In this document: positions 21,790 to 30,293 of the stretch, in pieces
Position numbering within the stretch: the first letter of the stretch is position 1
Layout of the letters: each line of letters begins with the position of its first letter
NCBI RefSeq assembly: GCF_009002475.1
Contig: NZ_AP019860.1
Coordinates: forward strand, 5,346,501-5,410,500
DNA from: Candidatus Uabimicrobium amorphum
GTDB lineage: Bacteria > Planctomycetota > Uabimicrobiia > Uabimicrobiales > Uabimicrobiaceae
Length of the DNA: 64,000 nt
Direction of reading: 5' to 3'
The notes under the pieces: model-generated
What the model was told of the DNA's origin: nothing
Databases searched by the model: none
The model's input: the letters and a program-made list of their open reading frames with translations, nothing else
Position numbers and translations under genes: made by a program

Positions 21790-24700
21790 ATGAAAGTTTC
21801 TCCGAAAAAAAAACATTATGGCAGATACAAAGAAGTTATCGAAGTTCCTAATTTAATTGAGTTGCAACTGAGGGCGTACGAAGACTTCTTACAAATGGAA
21901 GCTCCCTTTATTGATCGCGAAGACAAGGGACTTGAAGCCATCATTCGTAAAGTTTTTCCGATTAAGAGTTATGACGGAAAAATGTCTCTAGAGTATTTGT
22001 ACTACGAGCTGGGAAAACCACGCTACAATCCTGATGAATGCCGTAAACTCAAACTAACTTACGGCGCTCCCTTTACCATACGCGTTCGTTTGAACATCGA
22101 AGGTCGTGATCCTATTGAGGATGATGTTTACCTTGGTGAGATACCAATCATGATCGGTGGGGGAGAGTTTATCATTAATGGTGCCGAGCGTGTGATTGTC
22201 AGTCAGTTACATAGATCTCCAGGTATTGATTTCGCAGAAGAAAAGCATTCTAGCGAGAAACACCTACAAACTTGCTGGATTATACCTGAGCGAGGAAGTT
22301 GGATTGAGATAAATGTAACAAAAAAAGAAACCCTTGTGATTCGCATAGACCAAAGCGGAAAAATCCCCATTACAATCTTCATTCGTGCTATGGGACCCGA
22401 ATACTCGACTGATGAATCTATTATAAAGCTCTTTTACGAAACACAAACTATTTCGTTGAGAAGTAGTAAGGCATCTAAAGAACTTGCACAAAGAATTTTA
22501 GCATCTTCTATCCAAATCAATGATGCTGTAGAGCAGGATAAATTACTACAAGTACCTGCTGGAACATCTTTGACCGATGACCTGATCAAGAAAATTTGCG
22601 ATAGTGATCTAAAATCGGTGACTGTCCTCAAAGAAAAGAAAAATCGTATTGATAATCTTATTTTGAAGACTCTGGAAGAAGATCCGACAAGTGACTTGAA
22701 ACGCAACAAAGAGAAGGAACCAGAAGGCTATGTCGCAGCTTTGGCGCGCATTTTTGCACGACTACGTCCTGGTACACCCTTTAACTTAGAAAGAGCAAAG
22801 AATCTGTTCTTCGAGAAATTTCACGATCCTACACGTTATCGTTTAGGACCTGTTGGCCGTTTTCGCCTCAACCGAAAATTTGGCCAAAAAGTGAATCCTC
22901 AAGAGATGGTTTTGACACCAGAAGATATATTTAATTCTGTAAACTACATTTTGAAACTGAGAAAAAATGAAGGTGAAGTAGACGACATTGACCACTTAGG
23001 TAACCGTCGTGTACGAACAATCGTCGAGTTGGCAGGAGATGAGTTCTACAAAGGATTCTTGAAATTAAATCGTACAATCAAAGAACGAATGAATATCGAA
23101 GCTGAAGAGACATTATCTCCTAAAAATCTCATTAACTCAAAAACAATATCTTCTGCGGTAGATTACTTTTTTGGAAGAGGTGAACTTTCACAAGTCGTAG
23201 ACCAAACCAACCCGTTAGCACAACTTACGCACGAAAGACGTTTGTCTGCTCTAGGTCCTGGTGGTCTTAACAGAAAAAGAGCTGGATTCGAGGTACGCGA
23301 CGTTCACATTTCGCACTATGGTCGTATTTGTCCTATCGAAACACCAGAAGGTACAAACATTGGTTTGATATCTAGTTTGGCGATCTACACCACAATCGAT
23401 GAGTATGGATTTTTAGTTTCACCTTATCTTGTGGCAAAGAACGGAAAAGTAACGCAAGAGATCAAATATCTACGTGCAGATGAAGAGCACAACAAAGTGA
23501 TTGCTCCCGCAGACAGTGTCGACTCTAAAGGGAATTTTTACAACCGCTTTGTGATTGCACGTGTAAACGGTGACTACCAACATATTTCGAATAAAAAAGT
23601 AGATTACTGTGATATTTCACCAAAGCAGATGGTTGGTGTGTCGGCTTCTTTGATTCCATTTCTCGAACACAACGACGCAAACCGCGCTTTGATGGGATCA
23701 AACATGCAGAGACAAGCTGTTCCTCTTCTTGTTACAGAAGCACCTATTGTTTCGACGGGGATGGAAAAAGCTGTTGCGCAAAATTCAAGCATGGTGATTT
23801 GCAGCGAAATTGATGGTAAAGTGAAATCGGCGACTGCTGAGCGCATTATTGTTGAAGATAAAAAACAGGAAATAGAATACAAATTACGCAAGTTTGTGGG
23901 ATTAAACGAAAGAACATGTTTAAACCAAAAACCGATTGTTCGTGCGGGAGACAAGGTAAAGAAAAACCAAGTAATTGCCGACGGTGCTGCGACAGATCAA
24001 GGGCAGCTGGCTTTGGGACGAAACGTTCTAGTTGCGTTCATGCCTTGGGATGGTTACAACTTTGAGGATGCGATCATTGTTTCTGAAAAGTTAGTAAAAG
24101 AAGACTACTACACATCCATTCATATCGATGAATTTGAAGCCGAAATACGCGAGACAAAATTAGGGAAAGAAGAATTTACCAGAGATATACCTAACGTTTC
24201 TGAAAGAGCTCTTCTCAATTTGGATGACGATGGTATCGTAAAAGTGGGAACAATAGTTCGCCAAGGAGATATTTTGGTGGGTAAGGTTGCACCAAAAAAT
24301 AAATCTGAGCTATCTCCAGAGGAAAAACTACTTCATGCGATATTTGGTCGTGCAGGTGAAGACGTTAAAAACGATAGTTTAGAAGTTCCTTCTGGTGTGG
24401 AAGGTATTGTAATCCATACCCAAAAATTTGCGCGTAAATTGAAATCTAAAGATGCTGCTGAGGCAACAAAAAACAAGGCAGAATTAGATAAAATCGAACA
24501 ACTACACCTGGAAACATTTGAAAATACTCTTCGCGATTTGTCGAAAGAGTTGGTGAGTGTTTTTGGGGACAATGTGCTGACAGAGAAAATAACCTGGCCA
24601 AAGAATCCGACTCTAAAGAGCCTAAAAGACGTAAAAGAAAAATTGAACATAAATCGTTTAAAACTGTCTAGCCGTGAAAAACGAGTAGAGGCAGCGCAAA

Positions 24701-25566
24701 TTATCAAACAACATATGGACATCATTATGGAATCTGAAGACCAGAAGAATAAGCAGAGTACTCTGTTGCAGTCTGGTGATGAACTTCCTCCTGGTGTTCT
24801 AGAATTGGTGAAGGTCTACATTGCCACCAAACGTATTTTATCTGTGGGTGATAAAATGGCGGGTAGACACGGAAACAAAGGGGTAATTTCGAAAATACTC
24901 CCTGAAGAAGATATGCCATTTCTCGAAGATGGAACACCTGTTGAGATTATTTTGAATCCTTTGGGTGTACCTTCACGTATGAACGTTGGACAGATATTGG
25001 AGACACATCTCGGGTGGGCAGCGAAAAAGCTAAACTTTCAAGCGATAACACCTATTTTTGATGGTTGTTCCGAAAAGCAAGTGGAAGAAGCACTCGAAGA
25101 AGCGGGTTTGCCAAAAAATGGAACCTGTTATCTTTACGACGGTCGTACAGGAGAACGCTTTGATCAAAAGACAACAGTTGGTTACATCTATATGTTGAAA
25201 TTGCACCATCTTGTCGATGATAAGGTTCACGCTAGAGCAACAGGACCATACTCTCTCATCACCCAGCAACCTCTTGGTGGTAAAGCCCGTTTTGGTGGGC
25301 AGCGATTTGGAGAGATGGAAGTATGGGCTCTTGAAGCATATGGCGTTGCAAATATCTTACAAGAGTTGTTGACGGTAAAATCTGATGATGTAGAAGGGCG
25401 TACCAAGATTTACGAATCGATGGTGAAAGGGGAAAATACCCTGGAGCCAGGAACACCTATCTCTTTTGAGGTTCTTACCAATGAGATCAAAGGGCTTGCT
25501 CTTGATATGCAACTGCACAAAAAGAAAGTAAAAAAGCGTCCTTCGGGAAAAAATACAACAAGTTAA
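21790..25566 (+). CDS. rpoB: DNA-directed RNA polymerase subunit beta
   Basis: Beta subunit of RNA polymerase, 1258 residues. Typical blocks are [20 protein letters not shown] near the start, the rifampicin region ([20 protein letters not shown], then LSALGPGGL), [46 protein letters not shown] and [21 protein letters not shown]. The usual resistance positions keep wild-type residues (Asp in VDQ, His in THERR, Ser in LSALG), so sensitivity to rifampicin is predicted. The last 15 residues are Lys-rich. Confidence 0.99.
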
Positions 25567-25631
25567 CCTTAACAGTACCTCGCCATTAACTTGTTTGAAA
25601 AAGGGTACAATGTTGGTTACATTTTTATTGC

Positions 25632-25736
25632 GTGACCATGACCGTGCCCCTAACCGCAATCGTAGCCGTAGCCGTAATCGTGATCGAAAATATCGATCAG
25701 GGTTAGGGTCACGGCTACGGTTACGATCATGGTAAC
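25632..25736. repeat. Inverted array of degenerate hexamers between rpoB and rpoC
   Basis: The left arm is nine consecutive hexamers of form GTRRYC (GTGACC, ATGACC, GTGCCC, CTAACC, GCAATC, GTAGCC, GTAGCC, GTAATC, GTGATC; 25632-25685). The right arm is seven hexamers of the reverse complement GRYYAC (25695-25736). The centre is a perfect TGATCGA-AAATA-TCGATCA hairpin (25681-25699). The rest of the 318-bp gap shows no gene. Confidence 0.8.
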
Positions 25737-25884
25737 GAAAAATCGTTTACAGGTTAAGTGGTTTGCAGTGAGCGCTGCGGTACTTTTTTGAGAAACATAT
25801 TGTTTTGTATTACTGTTAACTGTGCATTAACAGTAAGAATGGTTATTCCGCATAAGGCGAAATATCTAAAAGGAGTTTCGCAAA

Positions 25885-28800
25885 ATGGTAGAAACTTTCT
25901 ACGATAAAATAAACGATTATGGTTCAGTAACCATAAAACTAGCATCACCAGAGGATATTAGAAGTTGGTCTTTTGGAGAGGTAAAAAAACCAGAAACAAT
26001 AAACTATCGTACGTATAGAGCCGAAAAAGATGGCTTGTTTTGTGAACGGATTTTCGGTCCAGAACGCGACTGGGAATGTTATTGCGGAAAATATAAGGGT
26101 ATAAAGTACAAGGGAATTGTGTGTGATCGCTGTGGAGTAAAAGTTGCTCACTCCAAAGTGCGGCGTAAGCGTATGGGTCATATAAATCTTGCTTCTCCTG
26201 TGGCTCACATTTGGTTTTTTAAAGCCATGCCTAGCCGCCTAAGTACACTTTTAGGCATTAAAAATGCTCATCTCGAAAGAGTGATTTATTTCCAAGACTA
26301 TATTGTCATCGATCCCGGAGAGACAAAGTTAAAGAAGTTTGACCTTCTTTCGGAAGATAAATTACGCGACACCCAGGCGCAATACGGTGATACATTCGAA
26401 GTAGGGATGGGAGCAGAAGCTATCCAGAAACTACTCGAAACACTAGATTTAGAAGCTTTGATCGAGCAGCTTCAAAAAGATTACGAAAATACAGGTGCAA
26501 AACAACGGCAAAAAGAAATTATAAAAAGACTCGAACTCGTAAAAATGATTCGCGAATCGGGTAATAAATCGGAATGGATGATTCTCGAAGTAATTCCAGT
26601 AATTCCCCCCGATCTTAGACCTCTCGTTCTGTTAGATTCAGGAAACTTTGCGACAAGTGACTTGAATGACTTATATCGTCGTCTCATTAACCGCAACAAT
26701 CGTTTGAAGAAGTTATTAGAGATGAATGCCCCTGACGTGATCATTCGCAATGAAAAGCGTATGTTGCAACAGTCAGTAGATGCACTTTTCGACAACTCAC
26801 GGTGTCGTCGACCAGTTGTTGGAACGGGAAATCGACCGATGAAGAGCCTTACAGATATGATTAAGGGTAAACAGGGACGTTTCCGTGAAAACTTACTAGG
26901 TAAGCGTGTTGACTACTCCGCGCGTTCTGTGATTGTTGTTGGTCCAGAATTAAAACTACACCAGTGTGGTTTACCGAAAAAAATAGCCCTAGAACTATTT
27001 CAGCCCTTTATTATTCGAAAATTGAAAGAGCTGGGACATGCTGATACCATCAAAAGTGCTAAGAAGATGTTGGAGAGAAAAGACAAAGAGGTTTGGGATA
27101 TACTAGAAGATGTGATTCGCGACCATCCGGTACTTCTCAACCGTGCACCAACACTTCACCGCGTTGGTATCCAGGCATTTGAGCCTATATTGACAGAAGG
27201 TAATGCCATAAAAATTCACCCTCTAGTTTGCTCGGGTTTTAACGCGGACTTTGACGGTGACCAAATGGCGGTGCATTTACCACTTTCGATTGAAGCGCAA
27301 GTCGAAGCAAGCACGTTGATGTTGTCAACAAATAATATTTTCTCGCCCGCAAATGGTGAACCGATTATTGCGCCGAGTCAGGACATTGTATTGGGTGTTT
27401 ATTACTACACGATTGAAAAAACTTATGAAGTAAAGAAAGTACCTTTGATGTCTTCGTTCCAAGAGGTATTTTTGGCATATGAACATAAGAAAGTGGATAT
27501 CCATAGCCCTGTGTGGGTAAAACTTCCTGAAGACCAGGAAATTATACCTCCACCAACAGAAGACGAAATACGCGGGCACAATATCATAAAAACAACCGTT
27601 GGCCGTGTGTTCTTCAACCGCATATTGCCAAAAGGTATGCCTTTTTACAATCATGCTCTTCACAAAAAAGCGATCACTGGGGTGATTTCTGAGTGCCACA
27701 ACCTATTAGGGCGAAGACCAACGCTGAAGTTATTGGATGACTTGAAGCAGTTAGGTTTTCACGCTGCAACCGTTGGTGGAATCAGCTTTGCGAAGAATTA
27801 TTTGATTATTCCTGAGGAAAAAGAGGAAATTATCAATAATGCGCGCAAAAAAGTGGAGAAAATCGAGAAGAACTTCAAAGACGGTGCGATCACGCAAAAA
27901 GAGAGCCACAACAGTATTGTTGACTGTTGGACGTATGCTCGTGACCAAGTAGGGCAGGTAATGATGAAATGCCTCGAACAAAACAGTGGTGACGAGGACA
28001 TTATGTTTAACCCACTATACTTGATGGCATCGAGTGGTGCTCGTGGTAGTTTAGAGCAAATTCGTCAGCTCGCTGGGATGCGTGGTTTGATGGCGAAGCC
28101 AAGTGGAGCAATTATCGAAACACCAATTATTGCGAACTTCCGCGAAGGGTTGAAAGTACTGGAATACTTCAGTTCGACACACGGTGCACGTAAAGGTCTT
28201 GCTGATACCGCGTTGAAAACAGCCGACTCCGGTTATTTGACACGTAAATTGGCCGATGTTGCGCAAAATGTTGTGATTAACGAGATTGATTGCGGAACAC
28301 CTGACGGTGTGACCAAAGGAGCGGAAAAGCAAGGGGATAAAATTATCGTACCTCTAAACCGCAACATCCGCGGGCGTTATGCGCGTAATACCATTAAAAA
28401 CAAACAAACGGGTGAAACCATTGTACGCGAAAATGAAATGATTACCGAAGAAATCGCGAAGAAAATAGAAGCGATGGGTTATGAAAAAATTCGTATTCGC
28501 AGTCCATTGACATGTAAAACTCCTTTGGGAGTATGTGCGAAGTGCTACGGTATGGACCTTGCACGTGGTAAGAGAGCCGAAGAAGGTTTGGCGGTAGGGA
28601 TCATCGCAGCACAGTCTATTGGGGAACCTGGTACTCAGTTAACAATGCGTACCTTCCACATTGGGGGGGTTGCGGTAAAAATGCGTCAAGAAGCCGAAGT
28701 AACCATTCCAAAACGTGGGGATCGCGTTCTTTTTAGCTTCAAAAATTTACAACACGTACAAAACCGCAACAAAGACTACGTTGTTATTTCGCGTAATGCC

Positions 28801-30210
28801 AGTATTGTGATGCATCACGAGGAAATTATCAAAGTTCCGTCAGGAGCCACTTTGGAAATTGTCGACGGACAGCAAGTGGTTTTAAATACTGCTTCGCAGT
28901 TGATTGCCAAAAAAGGACGTACAGAACTCAAGGCAAAAATGGGTGGGATTGTTGAGATCAAAGACAAGAAAAATGTCAATGAGAACAACAAAGTCACCAG
29001 CCGCAGTGGTTGCAAAGTCGTGATTTCTTTCGAAGAGGAAGTACCTATTCCTCTTGGTGCAGAACTTCACAAACTCGATGGTGGTAAACCAATTGTTTTC
29101 GACGGTATGGTTTTGGAAACTGCGAATTTGAAAAAAGGTGAGATTCTTGCAAATTGGGACCCTCACAATATTCCAATTTTCTCCGAAACAAATGGGGTGG
29201 TACACTACGATGATATTATCCCTGATGTGACCATGCGCGAAGATGAAAATGGTAAGGTTATCATTGAGCACAAGGGTGAAAAGCAACCTGCGATTGTCCT
29301 AAAAGACAAAACAGGCAAAAATATTGCGATTTACTCTGTGCCTGAAAAAGCGCACATTGAAGTAGATGATGGCGAAAAAGTAACTGCGGGTACTTTGTTG
29401 GCGAAAACACCTCGCGAGGTAACGGGTACTCAGGATATTACCGGTGGTCTTCCACGTGTAACGGAAATTCTCGAAGCACGACGTCCAAAAAACGCAACGG
29501 TTATTAGTGAAATTACTGGTGTGGTTGAGTTGGGCGAAAAACGCCGTGGTAAGAGAACCATTATTGTGAAGAATACCGAAGGTGAAAAGGAAATATCAAG
29601 AGAGCACCTAGTTCCTCACGGTAAACCTCTAAAGGTACGCCGTGGAGATCAAGTAAAAGCAGGAGATGCTTTAGTTGATGGTCCAAAGGTTCCTCATGAT
29701 ATTCTACGTTGTTGTGGAGTGGCAATGCTACAACAATATTTACTTCAAGAGATTCAGAAAGTTTATTGGGCGCAGAATGTAAAGATCGATGACAAACACA
29801 TTGAGATTATCATTCGCCAAATGATGAGAAAAGTACGTGTAGAAAAATCGGGTGATACAGATTTTCTACCAGGTGCGATCGTCGATAAATTTCAATTTCA
29901 TGAAGTAAATCGCAAAATGCGCGAAAGCGGTAAAAAAATGGCGACATATAAACCACTGCTTTTGGGTATTACCAAAGCATCACTACAATCTGAGTCGTTC
30001 ATCAGTGCGGCATCGTTCCAAGAAACAACAAAGGTTCTTACGGAAGCGGCCCTTGCTGGTAAGAAAGATGAACTACTTGGCTTGAAAGAGAATGTGATTT
30101 TAGGACACATGGTTCCTGCAGGAACAGGTTTTAAAGCACATCACCAAACTGATATTGAAGTTGTGGCCGAAGAGGAAACGAAAGAAGCCTCTGAGTCTGT
30201 GACTTCATAA
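25885..30210 (+). CDS. rpoC: DNA-directed RNA polymerase subunit beta'
   Basis: The 1441-residue catalytic subunit. The N-terminal zinc site uses Cys65, Cys67, Cys80 and Cys83. The invariant NADFDGD (453-459) supplies three Asp ligands for the catalytic magnesium. The clamp and lid precede it ([20 protein letters not shown]). The bridge helix and trigger loop follow, and the second zinc site is CGTPDG...[16 protein letters not shown] 25885 has AAAAGGAG upstream. The 318-bp gap from rpoB is unusually large and holds a hexamer array. Confidence 0.99.
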
Positions 30211-30225
30211 CATAAATTCGTTTTT

Positions 30226-30293
30226 GATCCGATCTCGAACCCGAAGATTCTCAGTTAAATCGGGAACGGGAACGGGATCGAGAACGGGATCGG
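30226..30293. repeat. Inverted array of degenerate hexamers between rpoC and rpsL
   Basis: The right arm reads ATCGGG, AACGGG, AACGGG, ATCGAG, AACGGG, ATCGG (30259-30293). The left arm (30226-30252) carries the reverse-complement form GATCTC, GAACCC and relatives. The two can fold into an imperfect hairpin. The architecture matches the array on the other side of rpoC, but the hexamer differs. Confidence 0.7.

Follow-up and report, generated by a model that had tools for sequence, protein, structure and literature searches.

In this study, we analysed a window of 64,000 nucleotides from the chromosome of Candidatus Uabimicrobium amorphum and found that the array of short repeats between rpoB and rpoC is one member of a chromosome-wide, mostly intergenic family of hexamer arrays. 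The array is probably a copy of a dispersed, non-coding palindromic repeat, similar to REPINs and SSRs, which has settled beside a gene end. The features of the region, with their positions in the window, are as follows:

21790..25566, + strand: rpoB, the upstream flanking gene (ORF; NCBIfam TIGR02013, 1619.8 bits)
25632..25685, + strand: left arm of nine class-A hexamers, starting 65 bp past the rpoB stop codon (sequence; profile scan)
25686..25694, no strand: AT-rich 9-bp centre GAAAATATC, the hairpin loop (sequence)
25695..25736, − strand: right arm of seven class-A hexamers in opposite orientation (sequence; profile scan; fold)
25763..25787, + strand: weak terminator-like stem GCAGTGAGCGCTGC, then TACTTTTTTG (consensus scan; may be chance, as shuffles expect 0.4)
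25810..25836, + strand: perfect 10-bp stem-loop TTACTGTTAA-ctgtgca-TTAACAGTAA, upstream of the rpoC start (fold, gap comparison)
25885..30210, + strand: rpoC, the downstream flanking gene (ORF; NCBIfam TIGR02386, 1721.8 bits)
30226..30243, − strand: opposed arm, short and degenerate, belonging to the class-B array past rpoC, GATCCGATCTCGAACCCG (identified by eye, under the scan threshold)
30262..30291, + strand: class-B array GGGAAC GGGAAC GGGATC GAGAAC GGGATC, 51 bp after rpoC and the second array of this operon region (sequence; profile scan)

The left arm consists, in order, of GTGACC, ATGACC, GTGCCC, CTAACC, GCAATC, GTAGCC, GTAGCC, GTAATC, and GTGATC, and the right arm, read on the other strand, of GTTACC, ATGATC, GTAACC, GTAGCC, GTGACC, CTAACC, and CTGATC. 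The original prediction of nine and seven hexamers in a kept register agrees with the sequence of 25632-25736. Its unit GTRRYC holds for half of the hexamers, since five of nine on the left and three of seven on the right match it exactly and each remaining unit is off by one base. The array had been called a mirror image; its halves are indeed opposed, and the proper term is inverted repeat. The TGATCGA/TCGATCA centre that had been described comprises the 9-bp loop together with the hexamer on either side of it, the last of the left arm and the first of the right arm. When (GTRRYC)x3 with at most one mismatch was searched in the window, all six matches were located inside the rpoB-rpoC array, compared to 0.01 expected from dinucleotide shuffles. 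The array is not due to chance. The anticipated folding potential was found on both strands, with −57.4 kcal/mol (z −8.27) for the RNA of the array region 25626-25742 and −50.2 kcal/mol (z −6.42) for the antisense RNA. Also, the gap between the two genes is as abnormally large as had been noted: It comprises 318 bp, and only 3 of 83 relatives with both genes located have a longer one (480, 965, and 1796 bp).

The genome consists of one contig of 9,503,417 bp with ~39% GC. The genome scan that had been proposed as a check revealed many other arrays, as exact (GTRRYC)x3 gave 110 + 48 matches and the reversed-pattern control none. For a second class of units, exact (GGGWWC)x3 gave 28 + 23 matches and again none in the control. 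In one 20-kb block of the sequence analysed (L202), 2,500 bases are masked. For unbiased counts per 2 Mb, only evenly spread blocks amounting to 2.0 Mb were used. This sample contained 23 class-A and 16 class-B intergenic arrays, while the shuffled control for all sequence scanned yielded no class-A and one class-B array. Scaled to the chromosome, we estimate ~100-110 class-A and ~75 class-B intergenic arrays or arms. A period of 6 dominates the intergenic tandem repeats of the genome, with lags 7 to 11 yielding 0 to 3. The profiled class-A units include GTGACC, GTAATC, GTAGCC, GTCACC, GTAACC, and CTGACC, the class-B units GGGATC, GGGAAC, and GGGCTC, among others; the unit edges are conserved, with T at position 2 in 98% and C at position 6 in 95%. 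An Rfam covariance-model search returned nothing above the gathering score (best 19.8 bits, 43 required). A G-quadruplex motif was present in 8 of 21 class-B arrays, and class-B arrays (e.g., L148:17437-17484 and L205:19238-19267) contain nine of the 13 canonical G-quadruplex motifs of the 2-Mb sample.

The orientation of the arms follows a fixed rule in both classes. Opposed class-A neighbours were always '+-' (15, and no '-+') and opposed class-B neighbours always '-+' (five, and no '+-'), whereby these counts are inflated because arrays of common descent do not count as independent. In the nearest relative compared (G001), the match list contained three '+-' pairs and no '-+' pair. Read inward from either end, elements of classes A and B both present the C-rich strand. 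About half of the class-A clusters are single-armed. Compact elements have their arms around an AT-rich centre, and several of these centres have 9 bp and are close to GAWWWWWTC, like that of the rpoB-rpoC copy. In a pair, the unit order of one arm is not complementary to that of the other (the summed alignment score is 318.5, compared to a mean of 342 with unit order shuffled), so that arm pairing rests on the degeneracy of the units and not on matched order. An origin of one arm by fold-back copying of its partner was rejected for the same reason, and insertion into a pre-existing hairpin was rejected because the flanks beyond the arrays are complementary no more than by chance. Two further ideas were dismissed: A telomere-like nature, based on an outward-facing G-rich strand and one GGTTAG unit of the window, is a mere resemblance, and a stop-codon code, suggested by TAA, TAG, or TGA in most common class-A units and by the near absence of TGG, fails on GTCACC, which has none of them in 78 units.

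Unit orders and centres common to several loci, whose flanks are otherwise unrelated, argue for copying of the element followed by slippage. The order GTAATC-GTCACC-GTGACC occurs in 14 arrays, compared to 1.8 after shuffling within arrays, and the order GTAGCC-GTAATC-GTCACC in 11, compared to 1.6. Four loci have the identical 21-nt centre TTGACCGAAAAAATCGGTTAC, others close variants of it, and in G001 the order GTAGCC-GTAGCC-GTGATC was found seven times, either on different contigs or at distant positions; the four identical-centre loci and the G001 arrays are known as coordinates and matched letters. Within arms, there are higher-order repeats of three units and pure runs, e.g., (GTGACC)x13. 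The copying step was inferred from these patterns, as no target-site duplication, transposase, or excision product of the arrays was found. The arrays themselves were rejected as a MITE since they have no constant core and their flanks are neither common nor inverted. Several hexamer arrays are interrupted by insertions of a separate MITE-like family with the ends CAATGCCATTGACTTAAG...CTTAAGTCAATGGCATTG, and the location of its L173 copy in the middle of an unrelated hairpin suggests that this family targets palindromes. The approximate positions of its copies are:

L260:9790-9996
L273:7343-7551
L223:4601-4808
L164:6673-7045
L258:2986-3320
L201:16335-16512
L269:10047-10165
L173:14766-14960

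The arrays prefer gene ends. Part of the array catalogue was chosen for containing arrays, and the neighbouring genes are long ORFs rather than calls of a trained gene finder; on this basis, class-A arrays have a median distance of 9 bp to the nearest gene 3′ end, compared to 24 for arrays placed at random within these gaps (P < 0.0005). Within 10 bp of a stop codon, there are 20 of 39 class-A arrays compared to 11 expected (P < 0.0005), and only 3 of 42 class-A gaps lie between divergent genes, compared to 181 of 665 background gaps. Class B shows a weak preference for 3′ ends (P about 0.1 and 0.06). About a third of the arrays adjoining a stop codon are antisense to the gene.

The family is also present in G001, where exact (GTRRYC)x3 gave 74 + 44 matches, although the rpoB-rpoC gap of this relative has only 30 bp and no array. 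Therefore, the copy in the window is a lineage-specific addition or was lost in G001. That the array is special to rpoB and rpoC, as originally supposed, was thus not confirmed, since it belongs to a chromosome-wide family found mostly past stop codons and is missing from this gap in G001. Hexamer matches in other Planctomycetota (G028, G041, G048, and others) are no evidence for further family members because the inspected loci are GC-rich (52-77%), several are in ORFs, and some are His-rich repeats. Two GC-rich Planctomycetota, G041 and G048 (L125, L123), have many GGTCAC or GGCCAC hexamer arrays.

The perfect stem-loop at 25810-25836 is located downstream of the hexamer array and is distinct from it. 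Perfect stems of 10-14 bp are also present in the rpoB-rpoC gaps of three relatives of the same order, G002 (L132), G003 (L130), and G004 (L133); the stem sequences in these three and in the window are unrelated, and stems of this kind are present in 13% of the comparable gaps of this genome. The corresponding gap of G005 (L131) contains an inverted AATTAAG heptamer array. The stems and the inverted array may be forms of a structural element that is conserved at this site.

Each full copy of the preferred dispersed palindromic repeat has two arms of degenerate hexamers, which face each other across a short AT-rich centre. We propose that copies would disperse by duplication of the element. Thereafter, the arms would lengthen or shorten through slippage and unequal exchange, and copies would persist where they are least harmful, next to gene 3′ ends. 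When transcribed, the rpoB-rpoC copy would form a strong hairpin, which may block RNA decay or weakly separate the two cistrons. Any such RNA effect would be a by-product, at most partly co-opted, and not the reason for the existence of the family. A role of the array in ending or processing the rpoB mRNA is possible.

The main alternative, which appears rather unlikely to us, is that the arrays are selected 3′-end devices, i.e., bidirectional transcription terminators, Rho-dependent or based on the hairpin, or insulators by which rpoC transcription is lowered or decoupled from that of rpoB. In such a device, polymerase coming from either side would meet the C-rich arm first, after the stop codon and with a rut-like YC step every 6 nt, and the G-rich arm would then close the hairpin. 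The constant C-rich-first polarity in both classes, the strong RNA folding, and two genes with a Rho RNA-binding domain in the genome (G000:C1:547917, L281; G000:C1:1175479, L282) are consistent with this, as are the location just past stop codons and the scarcity between divergent genes; persistence there fits selection at 3′ ends equally with tolerance. Canonical terminators were found at 3 of 52 array-bearing ends and at 70 of 564 others, a difference in the same direction which is not significant (p = 0.18). However, the third of stop-adjacent arrays in antisense orientation, the missing conservation at the rpoB-rpoC site in G001, and arms that are not ordered complements, so that precise pairing is not under selection, argue against terminators. 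Also, no sign of a U-tract was seen beyond the arms (A 201, T 169, p = 0.11), and an intrinsic terminator of GC-rich hairpin plus U-tract was rejected since the hairpin is present and U-tract enrichment beyond the arms is absent. We give little credence to a lineage-specific 3′-end code, in which a dedicated factor would read the oriented 6-nt units in nascent RNA past stop codons and set termination or mRNA end formation genome-wide, with unit number tuning expression including the rpoB:rpoC ratio.

The long pure runs and the higher-order duplications within arms would also be expected of ordinary microsatellites, each formed by local replication slippage of a chance hexamer and without dispersal. 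Such an origin is quite improbable, as unrelated loci have unit orders and identical 21-nt centres in common, the polarity is uniform, and there are only two unit families. It is even less probable that a DNA-binding protein recognises the arrays or that they serve to organise the chromosome, being read as evenly spaced, oriented 6-bp units: The conserved unit edges, the fixed polarity, and the two unit classes fit such a role, but many arms are heterogeneous, no candidate protein was found, and the 3′-end preference is not predicted. The link between the strand of the arrays and GC skew, which also counts here, was not significant (p = 0.098), and a function as replication-strand marker was therefore rejected.

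The dispersed repeat thus favoured comprises two families of palindromes with hexamer arms, which are related to each other and occur in a lineage noted for cell engulfment and for a large, poorly described genome. By its constant polarity, common unit orders, and location past stop codons, it lends itself to testing how simple repeats spread in bacteria and whether they gain a 3′-end role. Core genes that are normally transcribed together could be uncoupled in their expression by the arrays between rpoB and rpoC and past rpoC.

Among open-licence papers, no description of the hexamer family was found, and the original statement that no named element has this design is roughly right for the hexamers; several of their traits are, however, common to heptamer repeats of Xanthomonas and Nostoc (PMC4692102). 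These repeats, (GGGAATC)n in Xanthomonas and (GGGGAYT)n in Nostoc, are degenerate intergenic SSRs distributed genome-wide, which are far nearer to the ORF upstream than to that downstream, sometimes overlap stop codons, and sometimes form convergent opposed pairs (PMC4692102). The hexamer family likewise consists of degenerate, short-unit tandem arrays in intergenic regions of the whole genome, its arrays lie near the 3′ end of the gene before them (median 9 bp compared to 24 at random), and its class-B units (GGGAWC) are similar to theirs. In contrast to the G-rich heptamers, the unit has 6 bp in both classes, class A (GTRRYC) is without GGG runs, and full elements are marked by constant polarity and an AT-rich centre.

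REPs and REPINs are dispersed, hairpin-forming palindromes, arranged as opposed doublets around a spacer and located downstream of coding regions, mainly between co-directional or convergent genes (PMC3116915, PMC3733652). The paired hexamer elements resemble a REPIN as high-copy intergenic palindromes forming an opposed hairpin doublet, a likeness that does not extend to the single-armed half of the class-A clusters. A REPIN has one conserved 16- to 40-mer, whereas the arms here are tandem hexamers of variable number. Also, there is no constant GTAG/CGTC end tag as in REPs; GTAG occurs inside some units, and the elements start with many different units. Unlike those of a REPIN system, the RAYT-like Y1_Tnp genes of this genome, several of which encode 237-247 aa, are flanked by other repeats, and their inspected flanks contained no class-A array and one degenerate class-B-like match only. 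A REPIN moved by RAYT was therefore rejected. RAYT-like genes (L286, L289, L290, L287, L291) adjoin clusters of GTGNCAGACTC-like or related CTGACACCTTG repeats, apparently as a separate REP system.

The TAACTGA heptamer direct repeats of Beggiatoaceae form intergenic arrays genome-wide and apparently spread from locus to locus by no known mechanism (PMC4679880). The hexamer family is like them in its short-unit arrays, intergenic and genome-wide location, and apparent spread. The TAACTGA arrays differ in being mostly upstream of start codons and head to tail, with opposed arrangements nearly absent (one) (PMC4679880). The hexamer family thereby resembles known bacterial intergenic repeats, of which the SSRs of Xanthomonas and Nostoc and the REPINs are the closest.
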